Positions 1,933 through 25,001 of a DNA stretch of 37,121 nucleotides are shown piece after piece; position 1 is the first letter of the stretch; each line of letters starts with the position of its first letter. The notes under the pieces are model-generated. The model had not been told where the DNA came from and made no database searches. It worked only from the letters and a program-made list of their open reading frames with translations. The DNA is from Desulfocapsaceae bacterium (GTDB lineage Bacteria > Desulfobacterota > Desulfobulbia > Desulfobulbales > Desulfocapsaceae), in assembly GCA_030065655.1 (NCBI GenBank), contig JASJDT010000011.1, positions 1 to 37,121 on the forward strand, read 5' to 3'. Position numbers and translations under genes: made by a program.

Positions 1933-4900
1933 ATGGCAGGTGAGGATAAACAGCAGATTGGTTTGAGCGTTTTGAAAGGCTTGAATGCTGCCGTGACAAC
2001 TACCAAGTTGTATCCACCACACTTTCCTCAGGTTGCCGATGCCGTAGAGAAAGCCTTTGAATTAATAACTGAATACCTGAGTAAACATGGCACGCTCAGC
2101 TTCAGTATGACTGATAATGAACCAAAACTCTGCGGTCTTCCTGTGAGTCAGAAAACATTGGGCAAGGTGCACGGAGAGGACATCTTCAGACAACTGAATT
2201 TACTCCATCTTGATCATGTCGTCCTTGAAAATGAATGCCTGCGTCCTACCTTCAATGCTTTGATGACTTTTTTCACCACCTCGCCTCAACTCGTAAACAG
2301 GGAAGGCGGTGGTCGTGCCTTCGTTGTCAATCTGGGTTTGAACGATAATTTCCCTGAAGAATATACAGCCGAAGTGCCCACCGAGCGGGAAGACTCTTTT
2401 GTGAATGTTCTTTCCGAATTGAAGAAAGAAGGGAAGGTGGCAGGTGAAGATATTCAGATACTGATAAATGAAATTGACGGCGAAACCATTGGGGGACAGA
2501 AAAAGATTTCCGTATTGGCTGATCATGCAACGAATCAGGAGAGCATGGTCACTCTCATTATAGCTGGTACCAGCCAACTTCTTCAGGGCATAAAGCGTAG
2601 CGGTGAAATCTTCTTTCCGTTCTCCTTTGCCACCCTCCTGCGGAACGTAAACCGGGTAGTTAACGAAGAGGATAGAGAGACGCTAGCTCAAGCGACTGCA
2701 TTGGCTTGTCGCGAGATGTTCAATGACTTTGGCATGTGCGTTGTGCTCCTTCAACACTTTCCCAAGGGATTTGGGATGGAACTCTATGATCGTTTGCTGG
2801 CAGCAACAGCGAAGGATTTTGAAAGTATAGTTCATTTGATGCGTGAAGAACAGGCCTCAATAGCAAAAACGGTTGGAAAAACCGCTGAGCAATACGGGTA
2901 CATTCGGACCGGTATTGAACGTTTCTTTGCTACTGAAAGGGGACAACAGTTTCTCATGCGGGAAAACGCCAAGAGTGCTCTGGATGCAGGAGAGAAAGAA
3001 CGTCAGGCCAAAAGAATACAAGCAGGAATCCACAGTATTCTAAAAGGTGATGTAAAAAGCCTCAGGAATAAGGAAATAGTCAACAGCCTGCCAGCTACAA
3101 TAGAGTCATTGATTGGCAAAGGAAAGGATAAGGCTGCTGCAACGATTATCACCAACATCACTACGGAGTTGTTGAAGGATGATGAGCGCAGTCATGATTT
3201 GTTGGGAGAATGTCTTGGCAGTGTAGCTGAAGGTTTGGTTAACAGTGAGAAATGGGAATGGCTTGAGAAAGTCTCCATACCGCTGATGGCATGGTTAAAG
3301 GGGGTTGACCGAGCCGATGATGTTTTTGAAAATGTAGTTGAGATTCTAATCAAACTGCAAAATCATTATTGGCAAACAGGAAAAGACCATCAGGCTGATA
3401 CCATTCTTAAACTTATCTTTGCAATTCGTTCAGGAAAGCTGGAGAAAAGTCAAGAGGTTGTGGCCATCGTCACCCGGCTCCAGGATAAAGCGGTGGAGCG
3501 AACTCCTTTATCGGAAATACTGGCAAAAAGTGTAGAAGGCAGTGATGAGTTTGCAGATCGTCGACTTATACTGCAGGGGCCGCTTGTGACCCGCTTTTTA
3601 CTCAATAAACTTCTCGATTCGGAAAATCGGGAAGAACGATTGAAAATACTTGAGTTACTCCGACGCAAAAAATCGATGCTACCGCCCGTTCTACTGGAAA
3701 AGCTCGCAAGTCCAATGCCTTGGTATGGCAAACGAAATCTTCTCAAGTTATTGGCTGAGACAGGCAGCAGTAAGCATGCCAGAAAAATCATTGAGTATCT
3801 GAACCATGAGGATATCAGAGTTCAGCAGGAAGCCTTTCTTTGCATTGATACATTAAGCGGTGAGGATAAAAAAGATAATTTGCTCGATGCCCTCTCTTTT
3901 GCTTCAGGACCTATGATGGAGCAGGTAGTGCGGGCCTTGACCCCTGTTGCTGACGAGGAGGTCATTGGGGTCGTTGCCGATCTTTTGGCTGATTGGAAAC
4001 ATTTCCCCGACGAAATCCGGGATCCGCTATTGGAACAATCGGTAAAACTTCTCGGAAAGACGACAAGCTCCACGGCGGAAAAAGTGCTCGATGACTTCTT
4101 ACAGCTTGAGAATAAGTCCAGAGCCCGAATTATTGGGGATGCGGTCTGGCAGGCTGCTCGTCAGGCTTATCGAAAAATTCGCACTGCAAGACGAGAGATT
4201 AGTAAAAAACAGGCACAGACCGCTCCAAGAGAATCAAGGCCTCCCGCGTTTTCTCCTAAACAGCCGGGAACGACAACAACTCGGAGAACGGAATACCCTG
4301 AAGAAGCAGATATAGCTGAACTGTTCGAAAACAATGAGACCGAGGAGGGCAAGAAGCGGCTTGTAGAGCTTATCGGTAAGGCAGCACGTGCCAGTCGCTT
4401 TGAGGAGGCCAAAAAGTTGCGGGAATGGCTTGTTGAGGTTGAACCAGCAGCATTGAGTGAAATAATTCAGGCAGCTGAGATTATAGAAGAGGCGCAAAGA
4501 GAAGGTATCAGCAATGATTATCTGAAGATCTGGTCAAGGTTGCATGATAACCTGACCTCTGAGGAATTTAATGCAGTGTACTATGCAATGGAGCATGCGA
4601 GCTACTCCAGCGAACATGAACTGGTACGTCAGGGTGAAGTGTTTCCAGCCCTTTTCTTTGTCAACCAAGGTAAGGTAAAGCTTTATTTCCATGATAAAAA
4701 TGAGGGAGAGGTCTTGCTGAGGGTAGTTGAACAGGGAGAAATATTTGGAGGTGATACATTCTTTGATGCCTCGGTATGGACAACCAGTGCCGCAACTCTC
4801 TCCCACGCTGAAATTTCATCTCTATCATATGAGCAGACTCGCGAATGGTCAGCCAATCAACCTGCGCTTATGTCCAAGCTGCTTGATTTCGTAAGGCAAC

Positions 4901-5304
4901 ACCATCAAGAGAAGACAGCCGAGCAAACGAAAACAAGCAGGAGAGAACATCCTCGTCAGCAGATTCAAGGAGTCGTGCAATTTGATTCTGCAGATGAGCA
5001 GAGTGGTACTTACGGTACCAAGCTCAAAGGTGAACTTGCAAATATATGTTCTGGCGGACTGTCATGTGTAGTACGAATTTCTAAGAAGAAAAATGCCAGA
5101 ATATTGCTGGGTAGAACAATGACTTTACAACTCCCCTCCGCTGATTCAGCCGAAAATAGGATGAATATAGATGGCGATCTAGTGGCCATACGCTCTTTGT
5201 ACAATGTGGAAAACGAATATTCTGCGCACCTCAAATTTTCTCGCTTACTCACGGAAGAAGAACTCCATTCTGTCCACGAAGCCTGTAAAAAAACAGCAGA
5301 ATAA
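1933..5304 (+). CDS. Large HEAT-repeat protein with C-terminal cyclic-nucleotide-binding-like domain and PilZ domain
   Basis: Helical/HEAT-like central region. Crp-like beta-roll (EHELVRQGEVFPALFFVNQGKVKLYF...GEIFGGDTFFDASVWT) then PilZ-like RREHPR...ANICSGGLSC. AGGAG SD at 1921-1925. Confidence 0.85.
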   Translation: MAGEDKQQIGLSVLKGLNAAVTTTKLYPPHFPQVADAVEKAFELITEYLSKHGTLSFSMTDNEPKLCGLPVSQKTLGKVHGEDIFRQLNLLHLDHVVLENECLRPTFNALMTFFTTSPQLVNREGGGRAFVVNLGLNDNFPEEYTAEVPTEREDSFVNVLSELKKEGKVAGEDIQILINEIDGETIGGQKKISVLADHATNQESMVTLIIAGTSQLLQGIKRSGEIFFPFSFATLLRNVNRVVNEEDRETLAQATALACREMFNDFGMCVVLLQHFPKGFGMELYDRLLAATAKDFESIVHLMREEQASIAKTVGKTAEQYGYIRTGIERFFATERGQQFLMRENAKSALDAGEKERQAKRIQAGIHSILKGDVKSLRNKEIVNSLPATIESLIGKGKDKAAATIITNITTELLKDDERSHDLLGECLGSVAEGLVNSEKWEWLEKVSIPLMAWLKGVDRADDVFENVVEILIKLQNHYWQTGKDHQADTILKLIFAIRSGKLEKSQEVVAIVTRLQDKAVERTPLSEILAKSVEGSDEFADRRLILQGPLVTRFLLNKLLDSENREERLKILELLRRKKSMLPPVLLEKLASPMPWYGKRNLLKLLAETGSSKHARKIIEYLNHEDIRVQQEAFLCIDTLSGEDKKDNLLDALSFASGPMMEQVVRALTPVADEEVIGVVADLLADWKHFPDEIRDPLLEQSVKLLGKTTSSTAEKVLDDFLQLENKSRARIIGDAVWQAARQAYRKIRTARREISKKQAQTAPRESRPPAFSPKQPGTTTTRRTEYPEEADIAELFENNETEEGKKRLVELIGKAARASRFEEAKKLREWLVEVEPAALSEIIQAAEIIEEAQREGISNDYLKIWSRLHDNLTSEEFNAVYYAMEHASYSSEHELVRQGEVFPALFFVNQGKVKLYFHDKNEGEVLLRVVEQGEIFGGDTFFDASVWTTSAATLSHAEISSLSYEQTREWSANQPALMSKLLDFVRQHHQEKTAEQTKTSRREHPRQQIQGVVQFDSADEQSGTYGTKLKGELANICSGGLSCVVRISKKKNARILLGRTMTLQLPSADSAENRMNIDGDLVAIRSLYNVENEYSAHLKFSRLLTEEELHSVHEACKKTAE

Positions 5305-5417
5305 CATAATCCTGATACGATTGATTATCTATTTAAGCAACATTCGAATGGAAGGTAAAATAGCGGGATATTTTTCCTTCGGTAGCATTTTGCTACTCTT
5401 ACTCTAAATCAGCTTTG

Positions 5418-7226
5418 ATGTCCAACCTCGTAACTGAAATACTGCAGCTGGATGCAGATTGTGAATATTTGCTGTTTTCCAGAAAAGGTGAACTTCTTTA
5501 TAACCCTACAGATTTTTTACCCAACTTATCAAGGGAACAGAAAAATATCTGGGCAAAAATTATTTCTCTTCTACCATTTCCTTTTGAAGCTAAATTGGTT
5601 TTCGCCGAAGAAACGCTGCTGATCTCTCAAAACGAGATCGGTTTCATTGTCGTTTTCTCAGGTGGTCTGAAAGAATTAGGAGATATGACGGAGCGGTGCT
5701 CTCAAGTACGAGAAGCTGTTGCCGATCTTGCCAATCGCAAAAAGCTGCTGGTCGAGATGCTCTCAAAGGCAGATGATAACGTCAAACTGGCACTGCTCGA
5801 AGAGCTTGCACCACTGGCCGATAAAGAAGTGTCCACTGGTTTGGTCGCTTTGCTGGCTCAATATAAGCAATTTACCGATGAGCTGAGGGATCAACTGTTG
5901 ATCAATATTTGCAGAATTTTGGGGGACTGTGATTCATGCGAGGCAATTGAACCTTTGGCTGATTTCATCGCGAAATACTGCAAGACCGGTACACCGTATA
6001 ATAGAGATATTGAAACAGAAGCGAGAGTCTCTCTGCAACAGCTTGAATTGATTCAACAGCAACAAAGTAGTGTCCTACCAGAAAATGGCAGTCATGACTC
6101 TGGTGTGATGGGTATGCGTGAAGATCATGCGGAATCATCCACATCTTCTAGTACTGCTGAGACAACTAACACAAACGATAATGAAAAAGGTTTGCAAGCA
6201 GTACAAAAAAAGGTAAAGCCACCGTTAAAAGACGGTGTGGAGCAGAAGATTAAAGATCTGGTTAACCAGGGAAAAAAGCAGGAAGCAGTGGCAATTATCA
6301 TGAGGTATATTGAAGCTGCAGCTCAACAGAGAATGTTTGAAAAGGCTGAAAAGCTGCGCGATACACTGATAAAAATAGACTCAATGATGCTAAAGGAGAT
6401 AATTCGGGCAGCAGAGATTATTGAGGAATATAAAGCTGCGACGATTGAACCAGAGCATCAGGAAATCCTGGCAGAACTTATCGATATGCTCAGTGTAGAG
6501 GAGTTTAATTCTTTATACCATTCCATGTCACTGCAGAAATTTGAGAATGGCGAGTCTATAGTTGAACAGGGAGCATTTTTGCCGCACCTTTTTTTGGTAA
6601 TAAACGGTCAAGTGCAGCTGTATGCAACTGTCAATGGCCAAGAAGTCCCTTTAAAAAAAGTGAGGAGTGGCGAAGTTATTGAGCCGGAAACCTTTTTCGA
6701 AGCTTCTGTGTGGACCATAAGTGTCAGGAGTCTCGGATCGGATCTTCTCTCTCTTCCCAGGAAAAAACTGGAAATAATGCGAGAAAAACATCCTTCCCTG
6801 GAATCACGTCTTGTTGATTATGCGGCACGATTTAGTTCTGCCAATGATTTCTTTCGACAAACCAGAAGATCGAGAAGACGATATGAGCGTAAAAAGCTGA
6901 GTGGACGAGCATCAGCCACACTGCTCGATAAACATGGTAAGGAGACCGACGTTTCTTTCAAAGGAGATCTGTTTGACATATCCCGAGGAGGAGTGTCATT
7001 CTGTGTTCGAGTATCGAAAAAGAAAAATGCCGGTTTGCTTTTTGGGAAGAGGATTAGCATATCCATTCCATCCGGGAATGTCGCTGCCAAGAGGCAACAA
7101 AGCCATCTCGGCAGAATTATTGCAGTGAAGGGCCACCATATCGTGGGTAATGAATATTCCCTGCACGTTGAATTTGACAGGGCGTTGAGTCACGAGGATA
7201 TGCGCAAGGCTCTCGAGCATGGCTGA
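5418..7226 (+). CDS. Shorter paralogue: cyclic-nucleotide-binding-like domain plus PilZ domain protein
   Basis: C-terminal ~330 aa clearly paralogous to the preceding CDS (AAEIIEE..., SVEEFNSLYHSM, FFEASVWTIS, DISRGGVSFCVRVSKKKNAG). ATG at 5418 or the TTG at 5415. Confidence 0.85.
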   Translation: MSNLVTEILQLDADCEYLLFSRKGELLYNPTDFLPNLSREQKNIWAKIISLLPFPFEAKLVFAEETLLISQNEIGFIVVFSGGLKELGDMTERCSQVREAVADLANRKKLLVEMLSKADDNVKLALLEELAPLADKEVSTGLVALLAQYKQFTDELRDQLLINICRILGDCDSCEAIEPLADFIAKYCKTGTPYNRDIETEARVSLQQLELIQQQQSSVLPENGSHDSGVMGMREDHAESSTSSSTAETTNTNDNEKGLQAVQKKVKPPLKDGVEQKIKDLVNQGKKQEAVAIIMRYIEAAAQQRMFEKAEKLRDTLIKIDSMMLKEIIRAAEIIEEYKAATIEPEHQEILAELIDMLSVEEFNSLYHSMSLQKFENGESIVEQGAFLPHLFLVINGQVQLYATVNGQEVPLKKVRSGEVIEPETFFEASVWTISVRSLGSDLLSLPRKKLEIMREKHPSLESRLVDYAARFSSANDFFRQTRRSRRRYERKKLSGRASATLLDKHGKETDVSFKGDLFDISRGGVSFCVRVSKKKNAGLLFGKRISISIPSGNVAAKRQQSHLGRIIAVKGHHIVGNEYSLHVEFDRALSHEDMRKALEHG

Positions 7227-7274: not shown

Positions 7275-9050
7275 ATGAAATCTCAGATTGAGCAATTTTA
7301 TCGGGAATGTCTCTCGGACAGCAAAGTGCAGGATAATGTCCTCTCCGCCAGCTGTCCATTTTGTGGTGATGTCGAATCTGGAAACGGCTCCAGAATTGTT
7401 GTTTTTCTCAATCCGGCAAGCTTTTTCTATGGTTTCTTTAAATGCCGTGATCACTGCGTTGAGGGTGGTTTTCCACAGTGGTTTGCTCGCCTTAACGGTA
7501 TTGACCCTGCCAGTGTACCGGGTCCTCTGGAGGATGAGTCAATCTGGAATAACCTCAGTTATCCAGACAAGAAAATTAATGGCGAGGTCGACGACTTTGA
7601 AAACAAGCTTGGCCAGGCAGATCTGTCATTCTTTACGGAGGCAGGTGTCGGTAAAGCAACTCTGGAGCGTTTGAAGGTTGGTTATAACGGCCGTTATCTG
7701 GTCTACCCTTATTATCAGCTTGACGGCAACGTTTATTCGGCCAGATGTGTTCACCCTGATAATTTTCAGGACTGGTTTTGGCATGGAGATGTGTCCTTTG
7801 GCCCTGGCTATACCGGACTTTTCAATGTTGAAGAAATTCAGCGTTGCAGCGGAGGGACGCTTTTTCTCTGTGAAGGTGAAGAAAATTTATTGCCTGTCAA
7901 GCAACTGGGTTTTCCAGGTGTTGGCTTTGCCGATAGAGCCGTTTTGGAACGGTTACAACCGGAATTTTTTGGTGCGGTAAAAACGCTTTTTTTCGTTCTT
8001 CGTAATACTCCGGAATCATATAGTGCGGCCCGTTTTGCCGCCTCCAAGATAGGTTATAAGGTACGCATTCTATATTGGCAACCGGAGCATCCACGTGATT
8101 TCACTCTTATAGACTTTGCCAAAGAAAAAGGGGATAAGCTTGCTCAGAGTTTTGGCGAGATGATTGTTACCGCCAAACCTTTTTCTCCTTTCAACACGGT
8201 GGAGAAGGAAGGAAGAGAGTTTTTCGAGACCATTGAAAAAAAGGCAGGAGAAGAATATGGCTCGCTTCTTTCCGGTTTCCCTCTTCTTGATCAAAGAATT
8301 GGTGGAATTCATGGAATAAACATTCTTGGAGGAGGGCCGAAAGTCGGCAAATCATGCTTCATGGTGCAAGTTGCCACCGAGCTTGCCAGAAAGAAAATTC
8401 CAGTACTTTATTATGATTTTGAAAACGGTAGACAAAGGTTGTATCAAAGAACCTTTTCGAGGCTAACAAAAATAGAGACTTCAAGACTTGCCGGAACGGA
8501 ACTTTCTGAAGAGGAAAAAAAGCTCTTTAATCAGGCCCGCCAGGTATTTGAGACAATGCTCCGCTACTTTCGGGTAATCAACGACAGAAAGGTCTCTCCT
8601 GAACTGATGCGACGTCATATCGATTTTCTTCGCCATGAAACACGCAATGAATTCACGGTTGTCGTCATTGACAGTCTGCATAAGTTGCCCTTCAAAGATC
8701 TCAGGGAGATGAGAACCGGTATTGATGCCTGGCTGAGACAAATGGAGGCCATTCGCGATGAACTACAGGTCTCGTTTCTGGTAGTGTCTGAACTTTCCCG
8801 GGGAACGGAAGGAAAATATGATGAAGAGCCGCATATGGGAATTTTCAAGGGGTCAGGAGACATCGAGTATAGCGCTGATAATGCCATGGTTCTTCTGCCG
8901 GATTGGGATCATATGCAGGAACAGCTCCGGGAAAGAGTGAATAAGCTGTGGCTCGTAGGAAGTAGGGAAAATCCACCAGGACTTGTCGGTGAATATGTCC
9001 TTGATTATCCCTATTGGGGATTTCACGAGAGGGCTGCTGGTAAAACTTAG
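7275..9050 (+). CDS. TWINKLE/DnaB-like primase-helicase protein (zinc-ribbon, Toprim-like, RecA-like ATPase)
   Basis: CPFCGD...KCRDHC zinc-ribbon; LFLCEGEENLLPVKQLGFPGVGF Toprim-like; Walker A GGPKVGKS; Walker B FTVVVIDSLHKL followed by a DnaB-type SFLVVSELSRG segment. GGTGAGGA SD. Confidence 0.75.
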   Translation: MKSQIEQFYRECLSDSKVQDNVLSASCPFCGDVESGNGSRIVVFLNPASFFYGFFKCRDHCVEGGFPQWFARLNGIDPASVPGPLEDESIWNNLSYPDKKINGEVDDFENKLGQADLSFFTEAGVGKATLERLKVGYNGRYLVYPYYQLDGNVYSARCVHPDNFQDWFWHGDVSFGPGYTGLFNVEEIQRCSGGTLFLCEGEENLLPVKQLGFPGVGFADRAVLERLQPEFFGAVKTLFFVLRNTPESYSAARFAASKIGYKVRILYWQPEHPRDFTLIDFAKEKGDKLAQSFGEMIVTAKPFSPFNTVEKEGREFFETIEKKAGEEYGSLLSGFPLLDQRIGGIHGINILGGGPKVGKSCFMVQVATELARKKIPVLYYDFENGRQRLYQRTFSRLTKIETSRLAGTELSEEEKKLFNQARQVFETMLRYFRVINDRKVSPELMRRHIDFLRHETRNEFTVVVIDSLHKLPFKDLREMRTGIDAWLRQMEAIRDELQVSFLVVSELSRGTEGKYDEEPHMGIFKGSGDIEYSADNAMVLLPDWDHMQEQLRERVNKLWLVGSRENPPGLVGEYVLDYPYWGFHERAAGKT

Positions 9051-14980: not shown

Positions 14981-16246
14981 TTAGCCGAAGATTCCCTTCA
15001 AAGTGAAAAAGAAGAGCATGGCCATGATTGCTCCGGCGGGCAGGGTGACTATCCAGGAGAGGATGATATTACCGACCACCCGCAGATCAAGTGCACCAAT
15101 ACCGCGGGCCATACCAACTCCGAGCACTGAGCCTACCAGAATATGAGTGGTTGATACCGGCAGACCGGTTCTGGATGCCAGGACCACGGTGGTTGCCGCT
15201 GCGAGTTCTGCACAGAAGCCGCGAGAAGGGGTCAGTTCAGTTATCCTTTTTCCGACCGTGAGCATTACCCGGTATCCCAGAGTAACCAGACCCAGGACAA
15301 TACCACCGCCGCCGAGGATGAGAATCCAGATGGGCAGTTCAGATTTCTGCATGACTTCACCCCCAGAACTGACGATACTGACTACCGCTGCCAGTGGGCC
15401 AATGCCGTTGGCCACGTCGTTGGAGCCATGGGCAAAAGCCATGGCACAGGCGGTAAAGAGCATCATCGGTGCGAAAACTCTTTCCACACTGGTGTAGTGA
15501 AATTCCCGGTCCGCATTGACATCTTCGCGAATGTTACGGACGAAATACCAACCGACACTGGCTGTAAGTAAACCGAAAAGGAAGGCAACCCCAAAACTTT
15601 CTGCGGTTGTGAATTCGATTTTAAGATGTTTCAAGCCTTTGAAGAGCGTGACGAGAGAAATGATAAAGCCGACCAGAAAAATATAAATAGGTGCATATTT
15701 TTTGGCGTTTCTCAGCGGATTTTCAGTGTCGAGAATAAGCTTTCTGGTGCTGATGACCAGTAGAAAAGATATGGTGCCGCCAATGGCTGGTGAGATTAGC
15801 CAACTGGCAACCACCTTAAGAACCTTTTCCCATTTCACTGCATCCGGGCCTATTCCCACAACAGCAAAACCGATGAGGGCACCAATGATGCTGTGCGTTG
15901 TTGAGACAGGCCATCCCTTAGCTGAGGCAATCATAAGCCAGAAGGCTGCAGCCAATAGCGAGGCAATCATGCCATAGACCAGTATTTCCGGGCTGTTGAT
16001 GATATTTGTTGGGTCTATTATACCCTTGCGGATAGTTTTAGTTACATGGCCGCCGGCGAGAACCGCTCCGAGGAACTCGAAAACAATGGCGATACAGATT
16101 GCCTGTCTGACCGTAACCGCCCCTGCACCTACCGAAGTGCCCATGGCATTGGCTAGATCATTTGCTCCTATACCCCAGGTCATGTATAACCCGAAGATTA
16201 TTGCCAGAGCTATCAGAATGGTACCGTAGGAAGCAATAATATCCAC
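14981..16246 (-). CDS. pit: PiT family inorganic phosphate transporter
   Basis: TWGIGANDLANAMGTSVGAGAVTVRQA and AHGSNDVANGIGPLAAV repeats, PVSTTH signatures (two copies), many hydrophobic segments. Confidence 0.93.
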   Translation of the reverse strand: MDIIASYGTILIALAIIFGLYMTWGIGANDLANAMGTSVGAGAVTVRQAICIAIVFEFLGAVLAGGHVTKTIRKGIIDPTNIINSPEILVYGMIASLLAAAFWLMIASAKGWPVSTTHSIIGALIGFAVVGIGPDAVKWEKVLKVVASWLISPAIGGTISFLLVISTRKLILDTENPLRNAKKYAPIYIFLVGFIISLVTLFKGLKHLKIEFTTAESFGVAFLFGLLTASVGWYFVRNIREDVNADREFHYTSVERVFAPMMLFTACAMAFAHGSNDVANGIGPLAAVVSIVSSGGEVMQKSELPIWILILGGGGIVLGLVTLGYRVMLTVGKRITELTPSRGFCAELAAATTVVLASRTGLPVSTTHILVGSVLGVGMARGIGALDLRVVGNIILSWIVTLPAGAIMAMLFFFTLKGIFG

Positions 16247-16261
16247 TTCTATCTCCTTGGT

Positions 16262-16951
16262 TTATCTGGAAAGAAACAGGGAAATCCTATCCCCTATGTT
16301 TTCTGCTTTATTGGATATGTCTCCGACCAGCTCAATGATTTTATACCAGAACATTACGTCCACGGGGTTGAGCTCTTTTTCTATGTCAAAGAGAGCTTTG
16401 CAGGTCCGGTTGAGGATGGCGTCAATATTATGTTCGCTTTTCCGAACACCTTTAATGATTTCGGTTACTTTTTCAATTTCTCTACCACCTCCGAAGCCAA
16501 CCTCGACAAGTTCGTCTAACTCTTCGATCATTTTTTTGGCTTCACCGCTGATCTCGATAGTTCCCTCGAGCAACTCGTCGATGAGGGGTTTGAGCGGTTC
16601 TGGAACAATCATCACCCGGTAAGACATGATTTTGCCAATTTCTTCGCAAATATCGGCGAGTCTGTCCTGATCAGTCATCAGACTCAGTAAATCTCTACGG
16701 TCGACCGGGAGAAGAAGGGTGGTGGGCATATTCAAGCGGAAAGAATTCTTGATAACATCAGCTTCCGATTCCAATTCCACTATTTGCCTGGCACACTCGA
16801 CAACTTTGTCATTGTTCTGATCATACAGTGCTTCAAAAAGTGGCGGGAGGTTGCAAATACAGGTAAAGACCATGCGCATATGTTCCTGGATAGGTTTGAA
16901 GGGTGATCTGCGCAGTAACTTGGAGAGAGGACTTGTTGATTTAAGGGGCAT
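16262..16951 (-). CDS. DUF47 / TIGR00153-type PhoU-like phosphate transport accessory protein
   Basis: Adjacent to pit; helical PhoU-like sequence with LPVDRRDLLSLMTDQDRLADICEEIGKIM. Start chosen at MPLKSTSPLSK with SD GAGGTGA. Confidence 0.85.
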   Translation of the reverse strand: MPLKSTSPLSKLLRRSPFKPIQEHMRMVFTCICNLPPLFEALYDQNNDKVVECARQIVELESEADVIKNSFRLNMPTTLLLPVDRRDLLSLMTDQDRLADICEEIGKIMSYRVMIVPEPLKPLIDELLEGTIEISGEAKKMIEELDELVEVGFGGGREIEKVTEIIKGVRKSEHNIDAILNRTCKALFDIEKELNPVDVMFWYKIIELVGDISNKAENIGDRISLFLSR

Positions 16952-17171
16952 GTTATTCACCTCATGTCTACAGGAAAATTTATTTTGACCGATGAGAGTT
17001 CGACCCAAAAAATTTTTTCCGACTGTAGAGCATCTCCCGAGGAAATGAAACAAAAAAACGGAATATATTTAAAAAAAATATTAGGGAAAAGTTAGGTTTT
17101 GGTTAGGGAGGTTGCCAAAAAGCTGTGCCTATTGATGGGAATGTGTAATCAGTCCAACCGGAAGGGCGCCA

Positions 17172-19253
17172 TTAACGGATTCTGTCGATGAGCTTAGTGA
17201 CCGGTTCTGCGGGAAATTCCAGGGGAATAACCTGGGTACCATCGAGAAGCAATGCTTCAGCACCTTCCTGATGACCACTGTAGATTATGTGATGATTTTT
17301 GATGCCGCCGACATCACGCCAATAACTGCCAAATGGATCGAGAGGGGTATGACCGACGATAAAAGGGATCCCTTTGGGCAGATCTAGAATCTTGCGGAAA
17401 CGTTTCACATCTTTTTTGTTATACCCTTGCAGATGATGTTGGCGCTGAACCCTTCTGGTCGTGATATCATTGATAAGATCTGACCTATCATGAATGTCAA
17501 TGAGGTCCTGGTAGGTGGTTTTCATCATTGGCGGTGCAGCGTGGCAGGCATAGAAAGAGGCACTTTTGGCAATGTAAGGCAGGGTGTCGTAGAGGCGATT
17601 CAAGGCAAGCAGGTACTCATCTCCGCGGGTCTCAAGTAATTGTCGTCTCATGAGAAGCCCCTGAGGAACACCATTTTTGCTGAGCTCCGGATTGAAACTG
17701 TCATGGTTGCCGCGAAGATAGAAAATGTTATCGGGAAACATGGTTTTCAATTTGAGAATAAGGTCCATCATGACAATGGAGCTTTCCATATCTTCCATTT
17801 CATCAGCCACTTCAGAATGAACAGCATCTCCGAGTATTATCAAACAGGCTGTGTTGGCGTAGAGACATTCCAGGAGATAATTTTCAGTGAGAATTTTGAG
17901 TAGGTTGTCCACCTGAGCATGAAGGTCTCCTACAATGACGGGTGTCAAATTTTCGGGAATTTGGACGATGCCGCCTGCGCGGTTCTTGCTGTTTTTCAGG
18001 GCGTATGAATCATTGGCGATTATCTGGGTAGCTTTTTCAACAAGCTGTAAGGCAGGCATGGGTTCCAGCATTTGAATGGGACCGCCATAAATTTCCCGCA
18101 TGGACAGCAAAGCTTCGTATCGATGTGCCTCTATCCGTTCCCGAATATCCTGGTCGTCCGTACGAATAATACTAACCCTTTTTCCCTGCTCCAGTGGGGT
18201 GAGAATCAAATCGCCGTTTCTATTGGTCACCTGAAGGTGTCTATTGGCTACATTTTTGTCAAAATCGAAAAGTTTGGAGTAGAGTAGGCTTTCTCGGCCA
18301 AGAACTATTGATTGACCGTCACGCAATCTGGAAAAACCGACAATATTTTTGACGCTGCAAGATAGGGGTGAAAAAATTAGCCAGTTCTTACCGATGTGCT
18401 TCTTTTTCACTCCGAGGGGAATTTCCGGATGAAAGTGGAGGAGCTGGTCCTCAAGCCTCAGCTCAAAGGTTTTACCATCATGAGCCAATCTGCATGGTGT
18501 ATGGATTTCCTCCTGCTTTTCAGTAATACTCAGCCAGTTAATTGCCTTTCTTTTGAAGAAATATCTTTTCCAGCTTCCAGAAGAATCAATGATACCTGTG
18601 CGTTTATACTGCGGCAGCAACCAGGCCGGCATGCTTTTCTCATTTGTATCAACAATTCGCATAGGTGGTTTTCCAATATCTTCCCGCACATACACCTGCA
18701 TACCGGCTCGATGCAGGTAAAGGGCAACTTCTCGATATACCGCCGTTTGGTTATTGACCATTTCCAGGCTGAGATCGTCATCGATGGGAAAATATCCTTC
18801 ATGGTGGCGATCCTGACGACGTTTCAGGACAGTTTTTGGATCGGGAAGCATGAACTCAAAAACGTATTTATGTTTCCAGTCAGAAGAGAAGAGGGATCTG
18901 CTGTCAGGAGGTATTTTGATCCGATCAAAGTCCAGAACAAGCAGTTGGTCAGCTTCAAGCCATTCCTTATCAAATACGGTGATTGCTTCCTTTATACCTT
19001 CAAATGGCAAACCCAGATGGACCTCACGCGGACGGTAAATAAGGCTTTGGTTTTTCCACCATTTCTTGGTGGTAAGGTCAATGAAGCCTTCGTTGGGCCA
19101 TCCTCTTATCTGATTGATATAGTATGTCTTGCCGGCACCAGGTGGACCGGTGACAATGAGTTGGAGGAATTCGAGACCGTCAGGAAGGGTCACCCCCCGT
19201 ATCGTCTGGGTGTGTTCAATGGGCTGTAGCAGTTTTTTTAAAATCTTTTGCAT
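17172..19253 (-). CDS. P-loop kinase-like / FHA-like / PPP-type metallophosphoesterase fusion
   Basis: Walker A TGPPGAGKT at the N terminus; central VLGRES...NRHLQVTNRNG FHA-like; C-terminal GDLHAQ, LGDAVHSE, RGNHDS, CHAAPP, VGHTPLD phosphatase motifs. Confidence 0.75.
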   Translation of the reverse strand: MQKILKKLLQPIEHTQTIRGVTLPDGLEFLQLIVTGPPGAGKTYYINQIRGWPNEGFIDLTTKKWWKNQSLIYRPREVHLGLPFEGIKEAITVFDKEWLEADQLLVLDFDRIKIPPDSRSLFSSDWKHKYVFEFMLPDPKTVLKRRQDRHHEGYFPIDDDLSLEMVNNQTAVYREVALYLHRAGMQVYVREDIGKPPMRIVDTNEKSMPAWLLPQYKRTGIIDSSGSWKRYFFKRKAINWLSITEKQEEIHTPCRLAHDGKTFELRLEDQLLHFHPEIPLGVKKKHIGKNWLIFSPLSCSVKNIVGFSRLRDGQSIVLGRESLLYSKLFDFDKNVANRHLQVTNRNGDLILTPLEQGKRVSIIRTDDQDIRERIEAHRYEALLSMREIYGGPIQMLEPMPALQLVEKATQIIANDSYALKNSKNRAGGIVQIPENLTPVIVGDLHAQVDNLLKILTENYLLECLYANTACLIILGDAVHSEVADEMEDMESSIVMMDLILKLKTMFPDNIFYLRGNHDSFNPELSKNGVPQGLLMRRQLLETRGDEYLLALNRLYDTLPYIAKSASFYACHAAPPMMKTTYQDLIDIHDRSDLINDITTRRVQRQHHLQGYNKKDVKRFRKILDLPKGIPFIVGHTPLDPFGSYWRDVGGIKNHHIIYSGHQEGAEALLLDGTQVIPLEFPAEPVTKLIDRIR

Positions 19254-19748: not shown

Positions 19749-22103
19749 CTAGTAGACGTTCATTGTCCATATGCCGCAGGGGCAAGTGTCTGCACAAAAG
19801 CCGCAGGCGATACACTTTTCATCATCGGATACATACTCATAGTCTGCTTCCACAGGAACTCCCGCCACCTCTTTCTGGGTGATCTCCCGACGGGAAATTG
19901 CGCCTGTAGGACAGATGGTTTCGCAGAGATGACAGTCTCGGCATGCTGCACACGAAAGACAGCGATTGGCCTGCTCATTTTCCGATGAACCGGCTGATTC
20001 GGGCACGTAGTGAGTGATGGTAAGTGTCTGCAGAGGAATGACTTCCTTGGAAAATGGCTGCCAGGGGATGTTCTTGAAATTTGCCAGAATGTATTCGGCA
20101 GCAGTTTTACCTGCCCCTAAAGCATTGGTCGCCAACCCTGGACGTTCCACATCGCCGATAGCCATAACCTTGGCATCGCTAGTGAGATGAGCCTCATCCG
20201 TTTTGATCCACGATGCCCCGCCCACGGTAACCGTTTCCACTGATCCCGGTAAAAATGGCAGTGCAGGTACATCGCCGATGGAGATAATAACCGTCTGCGC
20301 TGGGATTAAATCCCCGTCCTCAGTGATCAGTCCCTCATCGGTAACTTCTTTGGTAACAATTGGCCAGAGGAAGGTCGCCCCATGTTTCTCCGCGGCTTCT
20401 TTTTCAAATCCAAAAGCAAGTGGTTTCTGGATGTCTACCAGCGTTACCTTCTCGGCGCCTAGACGATATGCTTCACAGGCAACATCACAGCCAACATTTC
20501 CCGCACCGATTACCACAACCTCTTTGCCTACCTTGGTGGTATTGTCACTTTTTGCTTTTTTGAGAAAATCCAGAGCGGGTATAACCTTGTTGCTGCCTGG
20601 GAACTGAAGTTTTCTTGGCTTGTGCGTACCAACAGCAATGACCACGTAGTCAAATTCATCGTGCAGTTTGGTAAAAGATTCCTTGTCCATATCAGTATTG
20701 AGATGGACATTGATATTTGGGGTTTCGACAAATCTGCGGATTTCTTCATCCCAGATTGCCTGGGACAGGCGTTCCCAGGGAACTACCTGGGCGAGTTTTC
20801 CGCCAAGTTTATCGTCACGTTCATAGATATGGGCTTCCACCCCCTCAAGAGCAAGTTGCCAGGCTACATTCATGCCGCCCGGACCACCGCCGATGATGGC
20901 CACTTTTTTACCAAGGGGATCTGCAATTTTCAGGGATTGATGTCTACTCACCGAACGGCCAAGTACCTGCATTTCGATCGGTTGATCGACACCACCGCGG
21001 GAACAGTTTTCCATGCAGAGGTTGGGGCATATCGCCCCACAAACAGATCCCGGCAGTGGGGTGTAGCCAAGGACCAACTCATAGGCCTCATCGATTCGTC
21101 CTTCTCTAATCAAACGAAGGCGATCTACAGTTGGAATATGGATAGGACAGTAATAGGTGCAGGGAGCGGCTTTTTCGCTGTTGGCCCACCAGGGTTTGTA
21201 ACGGCGCATCTCTCCGGTGACAATCGCATCAATTGTGCTGCGATCAAGACCAGGTGCGAGGTCGCGCAACGGATCGCCACCACCAAAGGCATTGTTCCAG
21301 AAGGTGTTGCGGTACTCTGCCATCGGCATTGGACCTGAGAACATCAATGCTCTTTCTTGGGGTGACACGGCCATGAGTGCCTGCCATTCTTCACGCACAC
21401 TCAGCTCATCTAGGAGCTCAGGGCGCTCGATTTTTTCGAGATAACCAGGCAGACGCTCTCTCAGCCACTGCCACTGGTCATCATCAAGGGCCTGAAGTTT
21501 AGCGTTGGTTTTTGAATAGGAATCGTCAATAGGACCACGAAAATAGATGGTACCGCCAACCATACCGACACAGGGGCGATAGCCGAGAACATTTTGGGGA
21601 TTCTTGGCCTCAACGTTGCATACAACCGCGATTCCACCACAGTTAAATTCAGCAAAGGAATCACCCGTGGAACCAAGTATCCAGAGTTCGGGACGTTGAT
21701 AATCGGGATTCCACTTGGTCATGGTCAAGCCCCGGGCACCGATGGAGCCGGCGATATATACCTTGCCGTTGGCCATGGCATTGCAGACACCGTTGGTGGC
21801 ATTGCCCCTCACCGTTATTTCAGCGCCAATGTTGAGATAGCCAACATCGTCTGAGGCCGCACCCTCACAGATTATCTCGGTTCCGGGCATTCCCATGCAT
21901 CCAAGTCGTTGACCAGCAGGTCCCTTGAGACGCAGGGTAAGTCCACCTTCTCTTTCCAGGCGAATGCCGATGTTGTGTTGGCCATAGGTTTCCAGAAGGA
22001 GCTCCGGAGCCTTTTTAGCAGCCTGGAACACAAGCTTTTCAAAATCCATTGAGTCGAGGCGTTGCCCCTGCTCATCGAGACCTTTAACTACTGGAATTGT
22101 CAC
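19749..22103 (-). CDS. Glutamate synthase GXGXG (GltB C-terminal-like) domain fused to GltD-like FAD/NAD(P) oxidoreductase with C-terminal 2x[4Fe-4S] ferredoxin
   Basis: N-terminal GxGxG-type helix region (GAEITVRGNATNGVCNAMANGKVYIAGSIGARG); AAPCTYYCPIHI, VAIIGGGPGGMNVAWQLA, VVVIGAGNVGCDVA; CLSCAACRDCHLCETICPTGAI and CIACGFCADTCPCGIW. Confidence 0.88.
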   Translation of the reverse strand: MTIPVVKGLDEQGQRLDSMDFEKLVFQAAKKAPELLLETYGQHNIGIRLEREGGLTLRLKGPAGQRLGCMGMPGTEIICEGAASDDVGYLNIGAEITVRGNATNGVCNAMANGKVYIAGSIGARGLTMTKWNPDYQRPELWILGSTGDSFAEFNCGGIAVVCNVEAKNPQNVLGYRPCVGMVGGTIYFRGPIDDSYSKTNAKLQALDDDQWQWLRERLPGYLEKIERPELLDELSVREEWQALMAVSPQERALMFSGPMPMAEYRNTFWNNAFGGGDPLRDLAPGLDRSTIDAIVTGEMRRYKPWWANSEKAAPCTYYCPIHIPTVDRLRLIREGRIDEAYELVLGYTPLPGSVCGAICPNLCMENCSRGGVDQPIEMQVLGRSVSRHQSLKIADPLGKKVAIIGGGPGGMNVAWQLALEGVEAHIYERDDKLGGKLAQVVPWERLSQAIWDEEIRRFVETPNINVHLNTDMDKESFTKLHDEFDYVVIAVGTHKPRKLQFPGSNKVIPALDFLKKAKSDNTTKVGKEVVVIGAGNVGCDVACEAYRLGAEKVTLVDIQKPLAFGFEKEAAEKHGATFLWPIVTKEVTDEGLITEDGDLIPAQTVIISIGDVPALPFLPGSVETVTVGGASWIKTDEAHLTSDAKVMAIGDVERPGLATNALGAGKTAAEYILANFKNIPWQPFSKEVIPLQTLTITHYVPESAGSSENEQANRCLSCAACRDCHLCETICPTGAISRREITQKEVAGVPVEADYEYVSDDEKCIACGFCADTCPCGIWTMNVY

Positions 22104-22260
22104 TGATAACTCCTTATAGCAATGGTAATCTCACCGGTACTGTCTTTACGGTGAAAGATATCTATCGTTATCGAAGAGATGCATTTTTAAATGGCAATAG
22201 CACTGTTTCCTAAACCTCTGCATACTCTCGTTTCACATGATCAACTACTATCAACAGAAC

Positions 22261-23901
22261 TTAACAAACGTACTTTATTTGCAGACGCTCGGCCGCATCC
22301 TTGTCATTTATACCCAAGGCATCTGACATACCCACGGGGAGGCTCTGCGAGCGTCCCAATGGTGCCATGATCTTTTTTACCTCTGTTCTGATGGACATGA
22401 AAACGTCGACTACACGCTGGGACACCAGATCCGGATCAAGCCTTCGGTATAATTTCGGGTTCTGGCTGGTAATGCCCTTCGGGCAGATACCAACATTGCA
22501 GACGTTGCAGCGATTCTTTTCGTTGCCGAGACAACCTGCAGCGGCCTGCATGATATATTTGCCGATATGAACGCCGGAAGCGCCCAACATGATAAGTGCC
22601 ATGCCGTTTTGAGCGACATTACCGTTCTTGCCAATTCCACCGGCAGCAAACAGTGGTATTTCGTTTTGTTTACCCTGCGCGGCGAGGTCGAGATAACATT
22701 CGCGGATATTTGAAGCAACCGGATGGCCGGTGGCGTTCATGGAGACGTCATAGGCAGCACCGGTGCCTCCGTCGATTCCGTCAATCATCAGGCCGGCAGC
22801 ATAGGGGTTACGCACCAGATTGTTGAGCACGGATTTGGCGGAAGTTGATGCCGAGATTTTTGGATACACCGGTACCTTGTGAGAAAATGCCGTAGAAAGG
22901 GTCTGAATCATCTTCATGACACTTTCCTCAATGGAGTAGAGCGTTTGGTGTACTGGAGGAGAGGGCAGATCTACACCTTCGGGAACGCCGCGCAGTCTGG
23001 CAATAAGTTTGGAGACTTTATACCACATGAGCAGACCACCATCACCGGGCTTGGCACCCTGACCATACTTTATCTCAATAGCGGCGGGATCACACTTCAT
23101 CTCCGGGATTGCCCGAATAATCTCATCCCAACCGAAATATCCCGAAGCAATCTGTAAAATGATATATTTAAGATAGGGGCTTTTGAGCACCCAAGGGGGA
23201 CAACCGCCCTCACCGGTGCACATGACCACGGGGATACCCAGTACTTCGTTACAGTACGCTACACCCTGCAGAAGACCTAGCCACATGTTCGGCGAGAGAG
23301 CACCAAAGGACATGGAACCGATAACAAAGGGGAATATCTCCCGGGTTGGTGGGATCCAGCCGCCGTTTTTACTTTTTTCAAGAAACTCTTCCGGTGGCAG
23401 AACCCGGCCTAGAGAGGTGGTGATATTAAACTCATGACGGCCTGCATCAAGCGCTGGATCGGTGAGCATGGAAATTCGATCAAACATGATGCGGTCAAGC
23501 AACGTGGGGCCTGTGGCATTCCTTCTTCCCCCACGCTTATAGGGCTCACCTTTGCCGTTATGATAGAAAAGAGAGCGATTTTCGTTAGCGTTGGGAAGAG
23601 GTGAAATGGCCTCATTGGGACAGACCATCTCGCACATAGCACAACCTATGCAACTGTTTTGCATTTCAGTTTTCTGCCGAATTCCGGTGAAATTGCGATA
23701 CTCTGTTTCACGTTTATGAGCAAAAACGTCCAGCTTGGGAATTCGTTGTCTCCGGTGGGCCAGGTAGATGGCACTGCGGGGACAGACCGCGGTACATTGG
23801 CCACAGAGAGTGCATCTGTCCTCACGGTGCTGGATTATCCAGGTGTGGTCGCTGTAGGTTAAGCTGCTTGGTGTAACGGATACGGATCGAGCTGAGACCA
23901 T
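22261..23901 (-). CDS. Glutamate synthase FMN-binding domain protein with N-terminal ferredoxin motifs
   Basis: CTLCGQCTAVCP and CIGCAMCEMVCP; PFVIGSMSFGALSPN, IKYGQGAKPGDGG, DGIDGGTGAA, AAGGIGKNGNVA; C-rich NRCNVCNVGICPKGI. Confidence 0.93.
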   Translation of the reverse strand: MVSARSVSVTPSSLTYSDHTWIIQHREDRCTLCGQCTAVCPRSAIYLAHRRQRIPKLDVFAHKRETEYRNFTGIRQKTEMQNSCIGCAMCEMVCPNEAISPLPNANENRSLFYHNGKGEPYKRGGRRNATGPTLLDRIMFDRISMLTDPALDAGRHEFNITTSLGRVLPPEEFLEKSKNGGWIPPTREIFPFVIGSMSFGALSPNMWLGLLQGVAYCNEVLGIPVVMCTGEGGCPPWVLKSPYLKYIILQIASGYFGWDEIIRAIPEMKCDPAAIEIKYGQGAKPGDGGLLMWYKVSKLIARLRGVPEGVDLPSPPVHQTLYSIEESVMKMIQTLSTAFSHKVPVYPKISASTSAKSVLNNLVRNPYAAGLMIDGIDGGTGAAYDVSMNATGHPVASNIRECYLDLAAQGKQNEIPLFAAGGIGKNGNVAQNGMALIMLGASGVHIGKYIMQAAAGCLGNEKNRCNVCNVGICPKGITSQNPKLYRRLDPDLVSQRVVDVFMSIRTEVKKIMAPLGRSQSLPVGMSDALGINDKDAAERLQIKYVC

Positions 23902-25001
23902 ATTGTCAGTTCCTTTCTATCGTTGGGAATTATTACGGTGTGTTCACGCATTGGCTGAAAATCAAGAGAGGGGTCGCGTTCCGGCACCAGTGCATCGACG
24001 CCGCACATTTCGGAGGCGATTGCCCATTCACCGGGGCGTCCTCCTACTGTTGCCGGACGTAATTTCTTGTGGTCCATGACAATAAGGCAGGTCTCATCTG
24101 GGAGGGTGCCGATAACGGCATTGGGACCATCAATAATCAAACGTCGGCAGACATCCCTCAAGCCACGGAGAAAATCTCCTTGAGGATGTTTTGCCAGCTC
24201 TTGATCGCGCAAGGGGGTGATAATATGTTTGTAGGCCTGCAGGGGGAGCTTCAGTTCCCTGAGAGTATAATGCAGGATATGGGCAAAGACTTCCGAGTCG
24301 CTTTGGTAACCAAGGTATCCCGGTAGCTTACGACCGAGCAACCAGTCGCGAATAGGCACGAAAGCCGTGTTTTCACCGTTGGTCATGGTTGCTATACCTT
24401 GGATGAAGAAGGGATGGCAGGCATAAAGGTTTATGCCATAGTTGGTGTTTTGTCGTCCCTGAGCCATGCACACTCTCGACTTGATCTGGCCGTCATGGAG
24501 CTTGAGGGCGTCACCGATTTGCAGTGGCCAGCCCACCTCTTTGATCATGGCAACATCGGGGTAAAAAGAGAAGATGCTAAGATCGCCGCCATGCTCCTCG
24601 CCTATTTTTCGCAAGGCTATACGAGTACGCAGCATTTCATCTTCTCTTTCCTCAGTTGACTTTTCTTTGAACTCCGCTGGCATTCTGTAGGCACGTAGTA
24701 GATAGCGGTAGCGATCCTGTGCCTCGATGAGACCATGTTTCATGTCAAATCGATGATCGTATTTGAGTTCGTAGCCATGACTATCCATAAATTCATCAAG
24801 CCGGTATTCCGCTTTCTTGGTATGGGCAACACCGGAGAGAACCGGGAATCTGGGATTATACTTGAAGTCTTCAAATTCCAGTCCTCTCAGCAATAGTCCC
24901 AGGCCTGATCCGTCATATCCTTCTTTCATGGCTTCCATGGCGGTAAGCACTGAATATGGTGAAAACGGCTCATTGGCTGTTTTTAAGGCTAAACGACACA
25001 T
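23859..25001 (-). CDS. Glutamate synthase glutamine amidotransferase (class II GATase) domain protein
   Basis: N-terminal MCRLALK with Cys2 as the expected nucleophile; YNPRFPVLSGVAHTKKA; NGENTAFVPIRDWL; AVIGTLPDETCLIVMDHKKLRPATVG. Confidence 0.85.
   Translation of the reverse strand: MCRLALKTANEPFSPYSVLTAMEAMKEGYDGSGLGLLLRGLEFEDFKYNPRFPVLSGVAHTKKAEYRLDEFMDSHGYELKYDHRFDMKHGLIEAQDRYRYLLRAYRMPAEFKEKSTEEREDEMLRTRIALRKIGEEHGGDLSIFSFYPDVAMIKEVGWPLQIGDALKLHDGQIKSRVCMAQGRQNTNYGINLYACHPFFIQGIATMTNGENTAFVPIRDWLLGRKLPGYLGYQSDSEVFAHILHYTLRELKLPLQAYKHIITPLRDQELAKHPQGDFLRGLRDVCRRLIIDGPNAVIGTLPDETCLIVMDHKKLRPATVGGRPGEWAIASEMCGVDALVPERDPSLDFQPMREHTVIIPNDRKELTIWSQLDPYPLHQAA

Follow-up and report, generated by a model that had tools for sequence, protein, structure and literature searches.

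PitR-type proteins work with cognate Pit transporters in phosphate homeostasis (PMC13170248). The regulation of bacterial PiT transporters, and what the PitR (DUF47) proteins sense, are poorly understood. Enzymes in which a P-loop kinase and a phosphatase share one chain are known from other settings. In PFK-2/FBPase-2 the two activities are opposed and set the level of a signal, and the polynucleotide kinase-phosphatases, bacterial Pnkp and animal PNKP, also join a kinase to a phosphatase, the bacterial enzyme using a PPP-type metallophosphatase. Two further points of background bear on the folds involved, namely that ApaH is a member of the PPP superfamily and that some P-loop domains act as nucleotide sensors.

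Here we describe a protein, labelled T, that is the 693-aa gene product encoded on the minus strand at 17172-19253 of the window, the window being the whole stretch of DNA analysed (37,121 nucleotides; Desulfocapsaceae bacterium, assembly GCA_030065655.1, contig JASJDT010000011.1, positions 1 to 37,121 of the forward strand), which comes from a MAG that is 85% complete. The link of T to phosphate transport is well supported. As a co-inherited protein with kinase-like and phosphatase-like domains, T offers a concrete handle on PiT/PitR regulation. A search of the literature for its domain combination gave no match.

Domain organisation of T

The open reading frame runs from an ATG at 19253 to a stop at 17172, giving the single 693-aa chain of the original prediction, and all of the motif strings quoted in that prediction were found in it. 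Metallophos is the sole Pfam match of T above threshold. AlphaFold models were built from 23 and 40 sequences (mean pLDDT 78) and resolved three parts, and residue conservation was scored over 46 aligned homologues.

The first part, residues 1-205 (18639..19253, minus strand), was assigned as a P-loop nucleotide/nucleoside-kinase-like domain by Foldseek of the model and by its invariant catalytic residues. For the 436-residue N-terminal model the best PDB match was the adenylate kinase of an Odinarchaeota archaeon (E 7.9e-4, prob 0.99), followed by other adenylate, deoxynucleoside and UMP/CMP kinases. The TM-scores of these matches are modest, about 0.4 by target, and so the domain can be called no further than 'nucleotide-kinase-like'. 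The features of a P-loop kinase (Walker A, kinase-type topology and LID arginines) are all present. The Walker A motif GPPGAGKT (residues 36-43; 19125..19148, minus strand) is invariant in the 46 homologues bar A40 and T/S43, giving GPPGxGK[ST]. Invariant too are D59, R74 and R76 and, within a LID-like segment spanning R146-D158 (18780..18818, minus strand), R146, R149, G153, P156 and D158. The kinase match is structural only: no sequence profile rose over any kinase family cut-off on this domain, and a PDB sequence search with its profile returned nothing significant. PADLOC gave only weak ATPase matches. Foldseek against viral structures gave generic nucleotide-kinase-like matches with none at E <=0.001. 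The N-terminal kinase-like domain first recognised from its P-loop is thus upheld, with an adenylate-kinase-like fold.

The middle segment, residues 240-365 (18159..18536, minus strand), is beta-rich and can at most be called a degenerate FHA-like domain. PF00498 was the only Pfam family to recur on it, being seen in 7 of 20 members with a best E of 0.0019 and every match below cut-off, and the window's own copy of T gave no match to this profile. When the segment was aligned by hhalign with FHA domains of related genomes the probability was 34-46%, and a PDB sequence search with the segment profile returned nothing significant. The FHA call made originally from motifs is weak. In its favour, the FHA-like GR and R-H positions are conserved (Arg320 in 41 of 46 homologues) and the sub-threshold PF00498 matches recur. 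Against it, the position of the FHA Ser is mostly Ala, the NGT motif is absent, and the top 50 Foldseek matches of the N-terminal model include no FHA chain. N344 is invariant, its equivalence to the FHA Asn being putative.

The C-terminal part, residues 416-693 (17175..18008, minus strand; PF00149 E 3.8e-8), is a PPP-type metallophosphatase domain for which Foldseek returned PP5, PP1 and PP2A at E about 1e-12 and TM about 0.7 by target. The superfamily fold and its metal ligands (GDxH, GD, GNH, H, H) are present, and D443, H445, D476, N516, H571 and H635, together with the catalytic His H517, are invariant in the 46 homologues. The original prediction had found all the expected motifs here; this holds for the fold and the metal ligands but not for motif II, where the canonical PPP signature GDxVDRG is absent from T and GDAVHSE stands in its place (residues 475-481; 17811..17831, minus strand). 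The catalytic Asp and the phosphate-binding Arg of motif II are thereby missing, and the domain is for this reason labelled 'PPP-type' and not a standard PPP member. The new residues are conserved in their turn, H in 46/46, S in 44/46 and E in 44/46 homologues. Phosphatase activity may have been altered or lost through the change, and the domain likely treats its substrate unlike standard PPP enzymes. The invariance of active-site residues across 46 homologues indicates that the motifs of T are not due to chance, and with active sites so conserved both domains look like enzymes under constraint. The predicted architecture of a kinase-like domain and a non-HAD phosphatase in an unusual order, with no ligase, is therefore confirmed, the phosphatase having a PPP-type fold. 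T may also be the phospho-signalling enzyme that the original prediction named as an option.

The closeness of this fold to PP5, PP1 and PP2A could indicate a phosphoprotein switch in which T is a PPP protein phosphatase guided by the FHA-like segment to a pThr/pSer partner, the P-loop domain serving as an ATP/ADP sensor and not as a kinase. The conserved GR and R-H positions and the sub-threshold FHA matches are consistent with this, as is the existence of P-loop domains that sense nucleotides. The proposal nevertheless seems unlikely to us, as the Ser through which FHA domains bind pThr is mostly Ala and NGT is lacking, the DRG of the PPP motif has become HSE, and a true kinase would be expected to have the LID arginines and the acceptor-side D59, all of which are invariant here.

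Comparison with polynucleotide kinase-phosphatases

T was originally likened to PNKP, as an end-healing enzyme whose kinase would act on 5'-OH ends and whose phosphatase would act on 3'-phosphate or 2',3'-cyclic phosphate. T does possess the two enzyme folds of bacterial Pnkp, and in the Foldseek search of the N-terminal model Pnkp1 was found at rank 13 (E 0.023, prob 0.63) and mammalian PNKP at rank 49. Adenylate kinases, however, outrank Pnkp in that search. TIGR04075, the profile of bacterial Pnkp, gave no match to T even with E values up to 1 allowed, and none across the genome; the DxxR of PNK is not conserved, D59 being invariant but position 62 being R in 27, Q in 12, K in 5 and T in 1 of the 46 homologues; in PPP motif II the Arg is replaced by Ser. 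As PNKP membership fails on four features the end-healing claim is strongly lowered, while some nucleotide-related substrate is possible. The T chain stops after the PPP-type domain with no ligase profile match, and it has this domain where animal PNKP has a HAD-type phosphatase. The neighbourhood of T was surveyed in 20 relatives for the ligase or Hen1 that such an enzyme might accompany, and no ligase, Hen1 or repair gene was found among the recurring neighbours, the genes that recur with T throughout being a phosphate transporter and its regulator. Given this strong link to phosphate transport we regard a role in end healing as quite improbable.

Distribution of T and its linkage to a PiT transporter

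Counting fragments, T was found in 85 of 258 genomes of the order, confined to two of its 15 families (63 genomes in f1, the window's own family, and 22 in f12). The 22 homologues aligned with T are 47-70% identical to it across nearly their full length. In a sample of 395 genomes from the phylum, full-length T was present in two f1 genomes and in none outside f1, two further genomes matching the phosphatase part only. The best partial match to the phosphatase part outside the order is a PPP-like phosphatase with GDYVNRG (L029, 1096-2169, minus strand) from another family of the same phylum. No relatives of T were found among the phages, plasmids and viral contigs searched. An exact-peptide scan of genome contigs with the single T protein, a method blind to distant phyla, returned one same-genus relative. 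The relative L026 is a MAG from an uncultured member of the Desulfobulbaceae; its contig coincides with that of G002, which is of the same genus as the window. Cable bacteria are also placed in the Desulfobulbaceae. Pit, PhoU and polyphosphate metabolism are annotated in a cable-bacteria genome paper (PMC10030654).

Downstream of T in the window and on the same strand is a gene for a DUF47 protein (PhoU_div, TIGR00153; 16262..16951, minus strand), a PitR-type accessory regulator by its matches to PF01865 (E 5e-51), TIGR00153 and PDB 2iiu/2olt. Its start is probably the ATG at 16951, the listed open reading frame beginning at an upstream TTG at 17053. This is followed by a PiT-family phosphate transporter (14981..16246, minus strand; PF01384 E 1e-122), which matches the Thermotoga phosphate transporter 6l85 at E 2.7e-95 and is the single PHO4-family gene of the genome (in a MAG 85% complete). 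Sulfate was considered as a substrate on account of a weak match to the CysP model, at 131 bits where the cut-off is 400, and was set aside because the protein aligned over its full length with 6l85. The transporter thus presumably carries phosphate, to judge from its sequence.

Of the 78 T copies that could be scored across the order, 72 have DUF47 as the next same-strand gene downstream. The match-to-match gap ranges from 60 to 694 nt and is often above 100 nt, so that co-transcription of the two is at most putative. At 20 further T loci DUF47 and PiT both lie downstream in 18, PiT alone in one (G524) and neither in another (G015). No clear Pho-box or shared k-mer signal was found upstream of T, and terminators and promoters around the genes of the region were near chance level. 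In many f1 genomes a syntenic block comprises the glutamate synthase genes, T, DUF47, PiT, mrcA and mutL, and the adjacency of T to DUF47 and PiT could on this account be a matter of descent with no functional meaning. This appears highly improbable, because at f12 loci the other neighbours vary yet the T-DUF47-PiT trio is retained, and because T tracks a PiT subtype and not a taxonomic family.

The glutamate synthase of this block, which many f1 genomes have upstream of T, lies at 19749-25001 of the window (minus strand) and is divided among separate proteins: one has GXGXG plus oxidoreductase, another combines the FMN domain and ferredoxin repeats, and a third, of 380 aa, matches no Pfam family and is probably the glutaminase. 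Elsewhere in the window two adjacent plus-strand paralogues, at 1933-5304 and 5415-7226, each have a cNMP-binding domain. HEAT repeats are present in the longer one, whose C-terminus is PilZ-like by eye; the shorter has a weak PilZ match, and the two may be a cyclic-nucleotide-responsive pair. Next to them, at 7275-9050 (plus strand), is a gene for a 591-aa DnaB_C/RecA-like ATPase with an N-terminal part that is zinc-finger/primase-like by eye; it lies outside any obvious phage region.

The PiT proteins of the order fall into two types by identity to the window's copy, A at 76-87% and B at 42-49%, with none between. This division is reproduced in trees, in which the A and B forms of DUF47 are split at 100/100 and the PiT types at 98/96. 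T and type-A PiT were found together in 74 genomes, T only in 11, type A only in two and neither in 171 (Fisher p = 7e-50 over the 258 genomes, a value that overstates their independence since they are related), and the type-B PiT has no T next to it. Most of the mismatches look like assembly effects. A contig end cuts T or its DUF47 in six of the 11 genomes with T only (G017, G029, G493, G511, G539, G545) and in a further three T is present just as a fragment (G020, G491, G557). As for the two type-A-only genomes, the DUF47 of one, G458, is missing its N-terminus, probably because a contig ends there. Three near-complete genomes stand as exceptions: in G015 and G561 T is intact, with neither a type-A PiT in the genome nor DUF47 beside it, and G633 has the type-A pair without T. 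Neither T nor the type-A pair, therefore, strictly needs the other. Second copies of the type-A DUF47 gene were also seen in G036 (L122, 4824-5780) and G026 (L123, 4854-5786), each preceded immediately by a LysR-type gene where other loci have T; in G036 a PiT gene follows.

The two genomes that keep T without type-A PiT are in agreement with another possibility, that T is an enzyme of nucleotide salvage or of signal nucleotides (its substrates being, for example, NMPs or dinucleoside polyphosphates) and is tied to phosphate uptake through metabolism and not through regulation. The adenylate-kinase-like N-terminal domain and the membership of ApaH in the superfamily of the phosphatase domain point the same way. 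We consider this rather unlikely, however, as it leaves unexplained why T accompanies one PiT/DUF47 subtype and not the other, and T has no profile match to nucleotide kinase families or to ApaH.

The tree of T places the f12 genomes G487 and G495 within the f1 genus g13 at 100/100. DUF47 from these two genomes also groups with g13 (89/94), and the PiT of both belongs to the same wider clade. The trees thus suggest that T, DUF47 and PiT moved between families jointly as a cassette.

A possible third component of PitR-PitA modules

As T nearly always lies just upstream of, and is co-inherited with, a phosphate importer and its regulator, it is more likely that T governs phosphate uptake than that it mends nucleic-acid ends. 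With the chances standing roughly in balance, the explanation that we favour makes T the third member of a PitR-PitA module for phosphate uptake, as a bifunctional kinase/phosphatase that would add and remove a phosphate mark or signal. With kinase and phosphatase joined in a single chain, T may switch PitR, PiT or a small signal in both directions. T would be a cytoplasmic enzyme in which the adenylate-kinase-like P-loop domain moves phosphate from ATP onto a substrate and the PPP-type domain strips phosphate off the same or a coupled substrate, with the beta-rich middle domain as a putative reader or coupler. Together the domains would set the state of PitR (DUF47), and hence the activity of the adjacent PiT or its reporting to phosphate control, in a response that would follow the phosphate or nucleotide status of the cell. 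In this scheme both catalytic domains would be active and opposed, and the target would be PitR/PiT or the signal that they read. More tentatively, and with the balance of probability against it, T may make and destroy a dedicated phosphate-status signal or reversibly phosphorylate PitR/PiT, which would amount to a covalent or second-messenger control of PiT uptake not previously described. A literature search turned up no description of a kinase/phosphatase gene that joins PitR and PitA as a third member.

Each part of T can be set beside a known system. Residues 1-205 resemble the adenylate kinase/nucleotide-nucleoside kinase fold (OdinAK, 7owe) in predicted fold, Walker A and LID arginines, and differ in a sequence that falls under every family cut-off. 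With the PPP-family phosphatases (PP1/PP2A/PP5 and the NinI/lambda type; phrog_246) T shares the fold, the six metal ligands, the catalytic His, GNH, HAGPP and GHTP, and it differs by the conserved GDAVHSE and by the added kinase-like and FHA-like domains. Bacterial Pnkp and animal PNKP are alike to T in having a P-loop kinase and a phosphatase in one chain and unlike it in profile, DxxR, PPP motif II, ligase, HAD phosphatase and gene neighbours. The comparison with PFK-2/FBPase-2 is one of possible working and carries no claim of homology, the phosphatase of that enzyme belonging to another superfamily and the activities of T being only putatively opposed. The PitR (DUF47, TIGR00153)-PitA pairs are directly represented, since the two genes downstream of T form such a pair; the difference is that T is added as a third gene, tied to one subtype in one order.
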